From contig CALSRX010000002.1 of NCBI GenBank assembly GCA_943788865.1, positions 186,001-250,000 of the forward strand: a stretch of DNA of 64,000 nt, in the 5' to 3' direction. The notes below the pieces were generated by a model. It was not told the origin of the DNA, ran no database searches, and worked only from the letters and a program-made list of their open reading frames with translations. Numbering within the stretch: position 1 is the first letter of the stretch; every line of letters begins with the position of its first letter. Source of the stretch: an uncultured Polaribacter sp. Lineage in GTDB: Bacteria; Bacteroidota; Bacteroidia; Flavobacteriales; Flavobacteriaceae. A program made the translations under genes and the position numbers. Shown piece after piece: positions 3,546 through 21,821 of this stretch.

Positions 3546-3622
3546 ATTTATGAAAAATTGAAAAACTTAATTCTCCCAAAAATAAATTGGGATAACCGGA
3601 TAAAATATACACTAATAAGGAG

Positions 3623-4650
3623 TTCTGTGCAACCTAAAAAACTGAATGAATAACGAACAAACTGCAATACGAACGACATATTTTAGCATAATTGGAAACA
3701 CCAGTTTAGCTTTGATTAAAGGGCTTGCAGGATTCTTTGGTAATTCATATGCACTTATTGCGGATGCAATAGAATCAATAACCGATATTTTCTCTTCTCT
3801 ACTTGTTCTATTTGGTTTAAAATACGCAAAACGACCAGCAGACGAAAATCATCCATACGGGCACGGAAAAATTGAACCGCTAATAACGTTCTTGGTAGTT
3901 GCTTTTCTTGTAACATCGGCAACCATAATTGCCTACGAAAGCATTCAAAATATTCAGACACCTCATAAAATTCCTAAATCTTGGACGTTAATTGTTCTTG
4001 GGTGTATCATTTTATGGAAAGAAATTTCATTTAGAATAGTTCTCAAAAAAAGTAAAGAGACCAATAGTTCCTCACTCAAAGCAGATGCCTGGCATCATAG
4101 AAGTGATGCGATAACTTCTATAATGGCATTTATCGGAATTTCTATCGCTTTAATTTTCGGTAAAGGCTATGAAACAGCTGATGATTGGGCTGCTTTGTTC
4201 GCTTCTGGTTTTATTCTTTATAATAGCTATTTGATTTTCAGACCAGCCTTGGGAGAGATAATGGATGAGCATCTATATGATGATCTTTTGGAAGAAATAC
4301 GAGAAGAATCTATAAAAGTCAAAGGTGTAGTTGAAACAGAAAAATGTTTTATTCGAAAAGCAGGAATGAAATACCACGTCGATTTACACGCAATAGTTGA
4401 CGGAGAAATTTCCGTTAAGGAAGGACACGATATTGCACATAAATTAAAGGACTATTTGCAAAATGAAATACCAAATTTAGGACACGTTTTAATACACATT
4501 GAGCCAGATAAATAAAAAAGGAATCACACAACCACGTATAAAATTAATTGCTAGTTATAGCCTACTTACGAAAGTCCTCGCGGACTTTCTATCTGTGATT
4601 TATTTGCTAACTTTAGTGCTTAAAACACGCAACTAATCTTATACAAACTG
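3623..4650 (+). mobile_element. putative integron-cassette-like unit carrying the CDF transporter gene
   Basis: The unit starts inside GTTCTGTG (3622-3629), 24 bases before the ATG of the CDF gene. It ends in the hairpin element that begins with CACACAAC (4525-4532) and closes at GTTA (4650). The reverse complement of CACACAAC is GTTGTGTG, matching the left box at 7 of 8 positions. In an integron cassette the left end and the 5' box of its attC site are likewise complementary. The gene stop is only 14 bases before the AAC of the element. No matching target site was found on the left flank, so this case is weaker than the one at 20.4-21.8 kb. No integrase is in the window. Confidence 0.4.
3646..4515 (+). 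CDS. cation diffusion facilitator (CDF) family divalent metal exporter
   Basis: Inner-membrane antiporter of the CDF family (289 residues), expected to move Zn2+, Fe2+ or similar ions out of the cytoplasm in exchange for protons. Family marks include the TM2 metal-site segment with Asp (ADAIESITDIFSS, about residues 39-51), the PYGHGKIEPL loop near residue 70, and the TM5 site HHRSDAITS near residue 150. A C-terminal cytoplasmic ferredoxin-like domain ends in GHVLIHIEP. The gene stands alone between the gcvP terminator and a 123-bp hairpin element 14 bases past its stop, and may be part of a mobile cassette. Substrate metal cannot be decided from the sequence. Confidence 0.9.
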   Translation: MNNEQTAIRTTYFSIIGNTSLALIKGLAGFFGNSYALIADAIESITDIFSSLLVLFGLKYAKRPADENHPYGHGKIEPLITFLVVAFLVTSATIIAYESIQNIQTPHKIPKSWTLIVLGCIILWKEISFRIVLKKSKETNSSSLKADAWHHRSDAITSIMAFIGISIALIFGKGYETADDWAALFASGFILYNSYLIFRPALGEIMDEHLYDDLLEEIREESIKVKGVVETEKCFIRKAGMKYHVDLHAIVDGEISVKEGHDIAHKLKDYLQNEIPNLGHVLIHIEPDK

Positions 4651-4653
4651 TTA
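4530..4653 (+). repeat. hairpin element copy A (attC-like, 123 bp from AAC to GTT)
   Basis: The layout is AAC (4530-4532), 3-nt spacer, outer arm GTATAAAATTA (4536-4546), central inverted repeat GAAAGTCC/GGACTTTC (4570-4577 and 4582-4589), outer arm TAATCTTATAC (4634-4644), 5-nt spacer, then GTTA (4650-4653). The second copy at 21.7 kb has the same spacers and nearly the same length. It also shares interior words such as GCCTACTT and AGTGCT and an ACGCAACTA segment. The outer arms differ between copies at four positions, all compensated on the opposite arm. Confidence 0.75.
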
Positions 4654-4670
4654 ATAAAAATCCAATAAAA

Positions 4671-20365: not shown

Positions 20366-20402
20366 AGAATTTGGTTTGTTTCTTAACTCGTTTTTCGCTA
20401 CC

Positions 20403-20453
20403 TTTCGCTAACTCTTGATATAAAACATTAAAACGTTCGATATCATAAAAGTT
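20403..20453 (+). repeat. short attC/attI-like site left of the serine hydrolase gene
   Basis: TTTCGCTAAC (20403-20412), 3-nt spacer, arm TGATAT (20416-20421), 18-nt interior, arm ATATCA (20440-20445), 5-nt spacer, then GTT (20451-20453). The AAC-N3-arm and arm-N5-GTT spacing is identical to both 122-123 bp hairpin elements of the window. TTTCGCTAAC is the exact complement of GTTAGCGAAA at 21812-21821, beyond the far end of the gene, not of the GTTGGCAAA now next to it. Confidence 0.6.
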
Positions 20454-21812
20454 GGCAAACATTAAACTAACATGAACCATTCAATTATGAAACAATTACT
20501 ATTTACACTAATTATTATTTCAATATTAACTGGTTGTAAAACTGAAAAACAAGAAAGTAAAAAAGGAATTAATCCATTGCCAATTAATACTTATTTTCAA
20601 AATAGTGAGCTTCCTGCTGCCATTATGGGATACAGTAACAAAGAGGGGCAAATGAAATGGTATGCATATGGACCATCTGTTTGGGGTGGAAAAGACACAA
20701 TAAATGAAAACAATATTTTCCGAATTTATTCAATGACCAAAGCCATAGCTTCAATTGCAGCCATGCAACTCGTGGAACAAGGGAAAATTGGACTAGATGA
20801 CCCTTTAGACGACTTAATGCCTGAAATGACATCTATTCCAATACTAACTAAAGAAGGAGAATTAGTTAAAGGTAGTAAATCAATAACATTAAGACACTTA
20901 CTGACCCATACTGCAGGTTTTGGTTATGATTTCACGTCATCAAGACTTCAAAGCTTTCAACCAGATAATTGGGAATATGAGGATAAACCTAGACTTTTTG
21001 AAGCAGGTACCAATTGGCGCTATGGAACTAACACGGATTGGGTTGGTAAAATCGTAGAAAAAATAAGTGGTAAAAATCTAGAACAGTATTTTAGAAATTA
21101 TATCACAGGACCACTGCAAATGGATGCCACATGGTTTAACGTACCGGATAATTTGAAAGATAGAATTGTATCATATGGAGTTAAAGATTCAACTGGTTTT
21201 AATGAATACCCTCGAATTCCCCAAAAACCAGTGACATCATTTAATGCAGGAGGTGGATTATTTGGGTCACCAAAAGATTATATGACATTTCTACAATGTA
21301 TGTTGAATTATGGTAAATATGAAGGAGGGCAATTATTAAAAAGAGAAACTTTTGAACTCATGTTAAAAGATAATTTGCCAAAAGAAGTAAGACTGAACTA
21401 TGAACAATTTGATAACGATGTAATGGGTTATACAGGAGGATTTGGCGATGAATCTGACAGGTGGGGATTAGCATGGGCAATTGAAGCAAATAAAAGCGAA
21501 TTATTTAGACCCATTGGGTCAGTATATTGGGCAGGTGCTGCGAATTCTTACTATACCTTGGATGTTGAGAATAAAATCGCCATAGTGTATTTCACTCAAT
21601 ACTTTCCATTCAATGACAAAGAAAGTTTTGATTTCTATAAATTATTTGAACAAGAAGTTTTCCAAGGCTTTGATAATTAAAAACGATTTGCCAACAATGG
21701 CTATAAGTAATTGCTTGTTCTCGCCTACTTTGGAAATTCCTGCGGAATTTCCAACTTGGTGTGTCCTTGTAAAGTTAAGTGCTAACCCACGCAACTACTC
21801 ATAGCCGAGACG
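20452..21812 (+). mobile_element. putative integron-cassette-like unit carrying a serine hydrolase gene
   Basis: A 1361-bp unit that starts TTGGCAAA right after the G of the left site and ends at the G of GTTAGC in hairpin copy B. Its left end GTTGGCAAA is the exact 9-base complement of TTTGCCAAC (21687-21695) at the 5' side of copy B. The flanks, TTTCGCTAAC on the left and GTTAGCGAAA on the right, are exact 10-base complements of each other. This double pairing is what integration of a circular cassette between G and TT of a GTT core would leave. The single gene starts 21 bases after the left GTT and ends 12 bases before the AAC of copy B. No integrase is in the window. Confidence 0.6.
20472..21680 (+). 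CDS. beta-lactamase-family serine hydrolase lipoprotein
   Basis: A 402-residue member of the class C beta-lactamase/PBP4* fold family. A lipoprotein signal ends in ILTGCK; the ATG at codon 6 (20487) is an equally good start. Catalytic motifs are YSMTKA (Ser87-x-x-Lys90) and RYGTNTDW (Tyr-x-Asn). The late GGGLFGSPKDY segment is typical of the esterase/peptidase-like members. Such proteins hydrolyse esters, D-peptides or beta-lactams; which one cannot be told. It is expected to be tethered in the periplasm or at the outer membrane. It appears to be the cargo of an integron-like cassette and has no operon partners. Confidence 0.88.
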   Translation: MNHSIMKQLLFTLIIISILTGCKTEKQESKKGINPLPINTYFQNSELPAAIMGYSNKEGQMKWYAYGPSVWGGKDTINENNIFRIYSMTKAIASIAAMQLVEQGKIGLDDPLDDLMPEMTSIPILTKEGELVKGSKSITLRHLLTHTAGFGYDFTSSRLQSFQPDNWEYEDKPRLFEAGTNWRYGTNTDWVGKIVEKISGKNLEQYFRNYITGPLQMDATWFNVPDNLKDRIVSYGVKDSTGFNEYPRIPQKPVTSFNAGGGLFGSPKDYMTFLQCMLNYGKYEGGQLLKRETFELMLKDNLPKEVRLNYEQFDNDVMGYTGGFGDESDRWGLAWAIEANKSELFRPIGSVYWAGAANSYYTLDVENKIAIVYFTQYFPFNDKESFDFYKLFEQEVFQGFDN

Positions 21813-21821
21813 TTAGCGAAA
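21687..21821 (+). repeat. hairpin element copy B (attC-like, 122 bp from AAC to GTT)
   Basis: TTTGCCAAC (21687-21695), 3-nt spacer, outer arm GGCTATAAGTA (21699-21709), central inverted repeat GGAAATTCC/GGAATTTCC (21732-21740, 21744-21752), outer arm TACTCATAGCC (21796-21806), 5-nt spacer GAGAC, then GTTAGCGAAA (21812-21821). It parallels copy A at 4.5 kb in length, spacer sizes, interior words and mismatch positions. It lies between the serine hydrolase stop and the next gene, whose ATG is 22 bases after the GTT. Confidence 0.8.

Follow-up and report, generated by a model that had tools for sequence, protein, structure and literature searches.

Integrons are gene-capture devices with one attI site and one promoter, and the Flavobacteriaceae are a major family of marine bacteria. 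Here we describe a candidate integron-type system of this family, starting from a serine hydrolase gene of an uncultured Polaribacter sp. (NCBI GenBank assembly GCA_943788865.1). The window, that is, the whole stretch of DNA analysed, comprises 64,000 nucleotides of contig CALSRX010000002.1 (positions 186,001 to 250,000, forward strand); positions below refer to it unless another contig or locus is named. A preliminary description, made from the letters of the window alone, had read the gene as an integron-style cassette bounded by two hairpin sites with exchanged recombination boxes. Our analysis makes it highly probable that the gene is an integron-type cassette in a docking site of a kind dispersed in Flavobacteriaceae, most likely placed there in trans by a tyrosine recombinase encoded elsewhere in the genome. 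The labels 'outpost', for a docking unit of roughly 100 bp consisting of the promoter-like sequence TTG-N20-TAnnTTCG plus a short hairpin, and 'IntX', for the recombinase, were coined in this analysis.

As far as the excerpts of the sources cited here go, a RefSeq survey with IntegronFinder 2 recorded Bacteroidetes integrons as In0 only, apart from one complete integron in Salinibacter (PMC9024848), and Bacteroidota are named without detail among the integron-bearing phyla (PMC9668308, PMC8618304). In the reverse integrons of Treponema denticola, integrase and cassettes are co-directional and the array lies downstream of the integrase (PMC7691350). Insertions by IntI1 into genomic sites termed attG have also been reported (Loot et al. 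2024 as cited in PMC12901181). No description of the present system was found in the open-licence literature, subscription papers lying mostly outside the scope of that search.

With chromosomal integrons, the present system shares a gene for a tyrosine recombinase with an attI-like site and tandem cassettes next to it, an attC-like hairpin whose bottom strand folds, a crossover after the first base of GTT with exchange of boxes, and cassette genes lying near the cassette boundaries. It differs from them in an integrase without the IntI-specific insertion that scores below the IntI cut-off, in boxes that rarely fit the RYYYAAC/GTTRRRY consensus, in an attI downstream of the integrase gene, and in many dispersed secondary sites bearing promoter-like sequences. 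In the Treponema reverse integrons the cassettes point the same way as the integrase gene, as they do behind IntX in 8/8 genomes; the Treponema integrase, however, is called IntI, and the available excerpt mentions no dispersed promoter-hairpin sites (PMC7691350). Insertions into attG resemble the window locus in being single cassettes away from an integron platform, inserted in trans; attG sites are said in the excerpt to diverge from classical att sites (PMC12901181), whereas the outposts form a conserved family with a shared hairpin, loop motif and promoter-like sequence.

The hydrolase gene and its flanking sites

The left site of the window (20403-20459, + strand; 82 bits with covariance model R1) is a short hairpin docking site. 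It begins with the left box TTTCGCTAAC (20403-20412), followed by the spacer TCT, the stem arm TGATAT, the conserved loop CATTAAAACG, the arm ATATCA, the spacer TAAAA and the right box GTTGGCAAA (20451-20459), which belongs to the cassette from G|TT onward. The promoter-like sequence of the outpost (20376..20407, + strand) overlaps the left box and is made up of TTG at 20376-20378, a 20-nt spacer and TACCTTTCG at 20399-20407. The right site is a long attC-like hairpin (21687..21821, + strand; 120.4 bits with model R2) with the boxes TTTGCCAAC (21687-21695) and GTTAGCGAAA (21812-21821). Across the gene, TTTCGCTAAC and GTTAGCGAAA are complementary at 10/10 positions and GTTGGCAAA and TTTGCCAAC at 9/9, confirming the perfect pairing of outer boxes first noted in the preliminary description.

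The inserted cassette spans 20452..21812 (+ strand, 1,361 bp), with crossovers after G20451 and after G21812. Its gene (20472..21680, + strand) belongs to the Pfam beta-lactamase family PF00144 (1.7e-49), and its position was as originally described: the open reading frame (ORF) starts 21 bases from the beginning of the GTT box and stops 12 bases ahead of AAC. On folding, the bottom strand of the attC-like site formed a single hairpin from box to box, closed by AAC/GTT (-22.7 kcal/mol, z -3.6), and the top strand took another fold (-19.1 kcal/mol, z -2.8). Single-strand folding of the short site alone was unconvincing (z -1.6 and -1.1), which we attribute to its swapped boxes; an empty site of the same genome, by contrast, folds well (z -4.7 and -3.6). 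An Rfam search at the two sites found no family at the gathering threshold. Genome-wide, the 10-mer TTTCGCTAAC by itself shows no excess, with 10 copies against likewise 10 for the reversed control, and its signal lies in the placement of the copies, not in their number.

Outposts in the genome and in the family

The preliminary description had proposed looking for other copies of the hairpin, and such copies exist. Scanning the entire genome for the inner hairpin returned four, and model R1, built from nine copies, identified 12 outposts, one of which is the left site of the window. In the nine aligned copies, the left box is immediately preceded by a stretch resembling TTGTTTCTAAAC...TAACTTCG, with the poorest likeness in L028, and the hairpin loop is CATTAAAACG or near-identical. 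Two of the 12 outposts are empty, their right box complementing the left (9/10 at 63.5 kb of contig C1, 8/10 at 143.4 kb of C2); the other 10 carry a non-matching right box and are classed as non-empty. Paired-column covariation in 33 short sites amounted to 39, against at most 17 with slid partners, and 130 long sites gave 371 cells changed on both paired sides against at most 103, both alignments having been fitted to the structure and hence being biased towards it.

A pattern with 24 fixed bases, run over 84,980 species genomes, matched 98 stretches. Among the 80 loci listed, every genus or family name falls within Flavobacteriaceae, three records being named to order, class or phylum only. 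Outpost-bearing genera include Algibacter, Polaribacter, Tenacibaculum, Lacinutrix, Winogradskyella, Hyunsoonleella and others, all of which we take to belong to that family. One outpost flank of the Polaribacter genome matches Polaribacter sp. HJF.25 at 99.5% identity across 1,575 nt.

Promoters of the flavobacterial type read TTTG, about 20 nt, TAnnTTTG. In the 81 outposts of relatives, TTG stands 18-21 nt ahead of TAnnTTCG in 75, at exactly 20 nt in at least 67, and shuffles of the upstream 32 nt place it at such a spacing in 7.3%; the pattern used for the search prescribed TAACTTCG. The outpost sequence TTG-N20-TAnnTTCG fits the flavobacterial type and is a putative promoter, from which transcription would start near the hairpin and run into the cassette.

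Short attC sites of about 54 nt with outpost-like architecture also occur inside cassette arrays (L375:9220-9273 and L374:16772-16824), with a loop similar to that of the outposts, CATTGAAACG in L375. Outposts may therefore have originated as short attC sites with a promoter placed in front.

Box exchange and position of the crossover

Crosswise box complementarity, out of 20, was scored for 33 short sites (12 of the Polaribacter genome and 21 of relatives) with a downstream hairpin of 105-160 nt, and compared with 1,056 decoys carrying boxes borrowed from other sites, which are conservative because many boxes resemble each other. A score of at least 18 was reached by 12/33 real sites and 25/1,056 decoys, and a score of at least 17 by 20/33 and 117/1,056, respectively. 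The window site scored 19, a value reached by 5/1,056 decoys. A few accepted pairs look accidental (L078, and L083 twice with one shared attC), and an earlier version of the test without the length limit gave a weak signal.

The preliminary description had tied its reading to complementarity being kept at other copies of the hairpin, and a downstream attC-like hairpin of about 130 nt with a box swap (score at least 17) was found at 9/10 non-empty outposts of the genome. The cleanest independent case, L028, scores 20/20, and its cassette has three genes, one for a Crp/Fnr-type regulator (by a weak NCBIfam match) and two unassigned ORFs, the last of which looks pirin-like by eye, without a family match.

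Four left sites end in ATT (C1:94.2, C2:495.0, C4:567.5 and C4:622.7 kb), and the right end of their cassettes nonetheless reads GTTAGCGAA, which places the crossover between core bases 1 and 2. The exchange between G and TT of the GTT core proposed at the outset is thus consistent with these sites, with the matching boxes of empty sites and with the insertions at orthologous sites described below.

Empty, filled and differently filled orthologous sites

Empty sites with matching boxes, as predicted from the swap, were present both in the genome (the two above) and among relatives, where 11/81 outposts were empty by the definition of at most one box mismatch and 4 more were too short to judge. 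Eight outpost pairs were compared, and four were clean empty/filled pairs. In Tenacibaculum, the empty site of uncultured Tenacibaculum 4-973 (L217) and the filled site of Tenacibaculum sp. L6 (L218) are identical over 56 nt up to the crossover; 808 bp are inserted at CTTG|ATAGCG, and the right flank is 94% identical. The other clean pairs come from Algibacter (L207/L189), Hyunsoonleella (L216/L174) and Gaetbulibacter/Algibacter (L185/L176), the flank match of the last picking up again about 200 nt beyond the site. As for the remaining pairs, L212 stops 153 nt past the site and is too short for comparison with L178, the match of L145/L162 is confined to the site and weak to the right, L207/L188 is more diverged, and both members of L143/L148 are filled.

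Within the genus, the empty outpost at C1:63.5 kb is filled in genome G151 by a cassette of about 1.0 kb with an exact box swap. Across eight same-genus genomes at this locus, R1 returned no outpost match in five, a remnant under its threshold in G130, a match of 43.8 bits inside a longer interval in G120, and the filled outpost in G151. A differently filled site was found at C4:699.9 kb, where the same outpost in Polaribacter sp. HJF.25 (L191; flanks 96% identical to the left and 93% to the right) holds a cassette of 288 aa instead of 139 aa (amino acids), the attC also being different. The G151 outpost (L326:2238-2342) has its loop enlarged by a short inverted repeat, CTGAACTAGTTTCAG, and is still filled, so loop length may be free.

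Within 4 kb of the 81 relatives' outposts, R2 matches (E <=0.05) lay downstream on the same strand in 43 cases, at 39 outposts; none lay downstream on the opposite strand, five upstream on the same strand and none upstream on the opposite strand. L144, which has two outposts, contributes 5/43, and the five upstream matches come from L144, L171 and L220. Where at least 2.5 kb of downstream sequence was available, an attC match followed 29/42 non-empty outposts and 0/6 empty ones (Fisher p 0.002).

At the window position itself, the search for an empty site in relatives found none: R1 detected no outpost ahead of this gene at any of the 16 other loci of the genus, one of which (L255) ends early at its contig edge. 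The reading of the hydrolase gene as an integron-style cassette draws its support from the empty sites, the empty and filled orthologous positions and the ATT-to-GTT junctions.

attC-like sites and relatives of the hydrolase gene

Model R2, built from alignment A3 of nine long sites of the Polaribacter genome, matches 13 sites in that genome and also has matches in 106/120 genomes of Flavobacteriaceae that are labelled as other genera. The poor fit of the window boxes to the classical consensus, already remarked in the preliminary description, extends to array sites: in 129 of them the left box fits RYYYAAC/GTTRRRY in 11 and the right box in 6, the latter a lower bound since 14 right boxes are clipped by the model end, and both boxes fit in 1/124 sites with AAC...GTT.

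Relatives of the hydrolase (E <=1e-100) were found in three others of 249 family genomes. In G034, the IntX match is a shorter frame (306 aa), and the hydrolase relative (67% amino acid identity) is found some 10 kb downstream of it, bracketed by attC-like sites (L374, 11640-11774 and 13004-13135). DNA similarity between the window and G034 begins at base 20451, with 27/30 nt identical after the crossover and 13/30 before it. The G109 relative (58%) likewise stands in an attC array (L375), and the third, in G095 (52%), has no R2 or R1 match in the 3.9 kb analysed. The relative of the window gene in another genus is thus a cassette in a tandem attC array.

As to the hydrolase itself, the best NCBIfam match is the methyl acetate hydrolase AcmB, far under the cut-off. 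By our reading of the sequence it is a probable lipoprotein, the likelier start being ATG 20487, which would open a lipoprotein signal. Its neighbours are a gene of the DDAH family and one whose product has a secretion sorting tail.

An R2-type attC-like site (46 bits) also occurs in the lytic Polaribacter phage P12002L (L305:14498-14628). According to the excerpt of PMC9892861, a Polaribacter phage carries attC sites, at least one of them active with IntI1, and the IntI1-tested sites of this phage are described alongside methyltransferase genes; the L305 site may thus be a further attC beyond the published ones.

IntX and its arrays

The preliminary description found no integrase, which holds for the window but not for the genome. 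Eight phage-integrase-family matches are encoded there, including XerD (L013), an XerC-like protein (L014) and IntX, a tyrosine recombinase of 387 aa (L032:7513-8676 on contig C3, - strand). As for the suggested IntI-group recombinase, IntX stays under the IntI cut-off: it scores 201.4 bits with the integron integrase model TIGR02249 (cut-off 265) and 201.3 with the XerA-type model NF040815 (cut-off 220), the genome's XerD and XerC-like proteins reaching 133.6 and 116.3 bits with the integron-integrase model. The IntI-specific insertion is present in 4/4 aligned IntI proteins (IntI1 and three from other classes of the phylum) and absent from 8/8 IntX-type rows, including that of the Polaribacter genome, and from TnpF; residues 181-242 of 2A3V stand opposite only 19 IntX residues. 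A C-terminal S-P-x-D motif (SPLD) is common to IntX and IntI and is not shared by Xer.

A 38-row tree separates 19 clade-A IntX proteins (100/99) from 13 IntI proteins (100/100), each group forming a clade of its own. Two clade-B rows, a Chryseobacterium plasmid protein and TnpF stand near the base with weak support, and the rooting is unsure because the Xer rows are very long. TnpF (L368:652-1317, pHH1107; 221 aa) shares 45% identity with the catalytic portion of IntX, and its placement close to clade B of IntX has modest support; among the 25 matches listed for TnpF-like proteins, 15 are Acinetobacter plasmids. Searches of viral contigs gave distant IntX relatives only (40 loci, <=34% identity over most of the protein), with the exception of L297, which is 62% identical over IntX residues 213-363.

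IntX also has an N-terminal extension of about 90 aa that is absent from IntI (L032:8407-8676). Its best Pfam match, HARP (PF07443), is weak and below the cut-off (E 0.011, 15.7 bits), and the same stretch of the Chryseobacterium plasmid relative matches DUF5710 instead. The HARP domain of SMARCAL1 helps that protein act on DNA junctions, and a HARP-like extension, if real, would be of interest in an enzyme working on hairpins.

The IntX stop codon is followed on its 3' side by CTATATAACTAGTTTGCATTA, an ORF of 256 aa and an attC-like site. The box TAATGCCAAC of that site is complementary to the start of CTATATAACTAGTTTGCATTA at 9/10 positions; judged by this layout, the locus is a one-cassette integron. 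The surroundings of IntX were analysed in eight one-contig genomes of other genera, 20 kb to either side (R2 E <=0.1). Sites resembling attC lay downstream on the IntX strand in 8/8, numbering 2, 5, 11, 14, 21, 21, 23 and 27 within about 19 kb, and none lay upstream in the eight stretches; four opposite-strand matches overlap same-strand ones. Site spacing in the six longest arrays had medians of 661-1,199 nt. A primary attI motif, ATATAACnAGTT, stands within about 200 nt after IntX in the Polaribacter genome, and exact copies were found in 5/5 clade-A and 0/3 clade-B genomes, clade-B G087 having one extra A.

Co-occurrence was assessed in the 120 genomes, with IntX called at E <=1e-38. At least 10 attC matches were present in 60/83 IntX-positive and 9/37 IntX-negative genomes (p 1e-6), and outposts are tied to attC, with at least 5 matches in 23/24 outpost genomes and 60/96 others (p 0.001).

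Proposed mechanism and alternative explanations

The exact box swaps, the orthologous sites that are empty, filled or differently filled, the occurrence of this cassette in an array elsewhere and the arrangement of IntX with its arrays, all read from the sequence, argue for site-specific recombination between a cassette hairpin and the short hairpin of a docking site. The cassette would be a circle with one gene and one attC-like hairpin of about 130 nt, probably recombined in single-stranded attC form. A cut behind the first base of the core, GTT (or ATT/GAT), would exchange the outer boxes. Given the promoter-like sequence immediately ahead of the hairpin, the outpost would drive transcription of an arriving cassette that has no promoter of its own, which would make outposts expression sites. 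The enzyme would most likely be IntX, acting in trans from a locus where its gene adjoins a primary attI (ATATAACnAGTT) and a single cassette. Tandem arrays of cassettes lie behind the IntX gene, on the strand of that gene, in other genera.

Several observations weigh against this account. No attC match follows 13/42 non-empty outposts with room downstream, possibly because attC has decayed or is too divergent for R2. At C4:276.9 kb (L027:6860-6965), the right box is non-matching and ORFs lie behind it, yet no attC-like site is detectable downstream; we propose a trapped or decayed cassette. Exact ATATAACnAGTT is limited to the Polaribacter genome and 5/8 others, outposts are not significantly tied to IntX (19/83 versus 5/37 genomes, p 0.32), and nine IntX-negative genomes have at least 10 attC-like sites (G071 26, G019 25, G066 25, G097 19, and five with 10-14), so that another enzyme or relic arrays are possible there.

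Some of these points would suit movement of the cassettes by XerC/XerD or another resident recombinase at dif-like sites, with IntX a bystander: the genome encodes XerC-like and XerD proteins and others of the phage-integrase family, and 5/24 R1-positive genomes have no IntX-level match. We consider this improbable. The attC-like sites follow IntX on its strand in 8/8 one-contig genomes, the attI motif stands after it in the Polaribacter genome and 5/8 others, and its C-terminal SPLD matches IntI, not Xer. The sites, moreover, are long imperfect hairpins with free boxes, unlike dif sites, which are short and conserved. The dif/Xer reading was rejected on the IntX-array arrangement, the site form and SPLD.

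Alternatively, a visiting IntI might have put ordinary integron cassettes into attG sites of the genome, with the short hairpin as no more than a favoured target. The reported IntI1 insertions offer a precedent, and a second candidate cassette of the window would fit: a cation diffusion facilitator transporter gene (3646..4515, + strand) has a long attC-like site directly 3' (4520..4658, + strand; 129.5 bits with R2) and no outpost 5' (window 3600-4658), its left junction perhaps being GTTCTGTGC near 3621. That cassette may have entered an anonymous, attG-like site, or its outpost may have decayed. The visiting-IntI explanation is very unlikely: TIGR02249 scored above its cut-off in 57/198 genomes of the phylum, of which one (G205) belongs to the same class and none to the same family, and outposts are a conserved promoter-plus-hairpin family rather than anonymous GTT sites.

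That the hairpins are terminators or elements like repetitive extragenic palindromes, with the box pattern a by-product of duplication, is extremely improbable and was rejected: GC-rich inner stems in several attC-like sites would suit it, but it is contradicted by the exact empty/filled junctions with changed boxes, the 43:0 strand bias and cassette homology that begins at the crossover base.

Implications for Flavobacteriaceae

We read the system as a divergent, non-classical integron lineage of Flavobacteriaceae with dispersed docking sites that bear putative promoters. The preliminary suggestion of a divergent flavobacterial cassette system is supported: the system works like an integron but departs from the classical kind in its integrase signature and its box consensus. 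Integrons had been reported as rare in Bacteroidetes, according to the excerpt of PMC9024848, whereas attC-like sites are present in 106/120 Flavobacteriaceae genomes analysed here. If our interpretation is correct, Flavobacteriaceae arrays may escape tools based on IntI and classical boxes, because their integrase lacks the IntI signature and their boxes rarely fit. The need for the IntI insertion in single-stranded attC recombination would also become directly testable.

We lean slightly towards a two-tier organisation, in which silent arrays behind IntX would serve as a store and the dozen outposts as single-gene expression slots, served in trans by a second, non-IntI integron lineage. The expression limit of long arrays would then be met by many docking sites rather than one, and the genome would express several cassettes at once, from differing surroundings.

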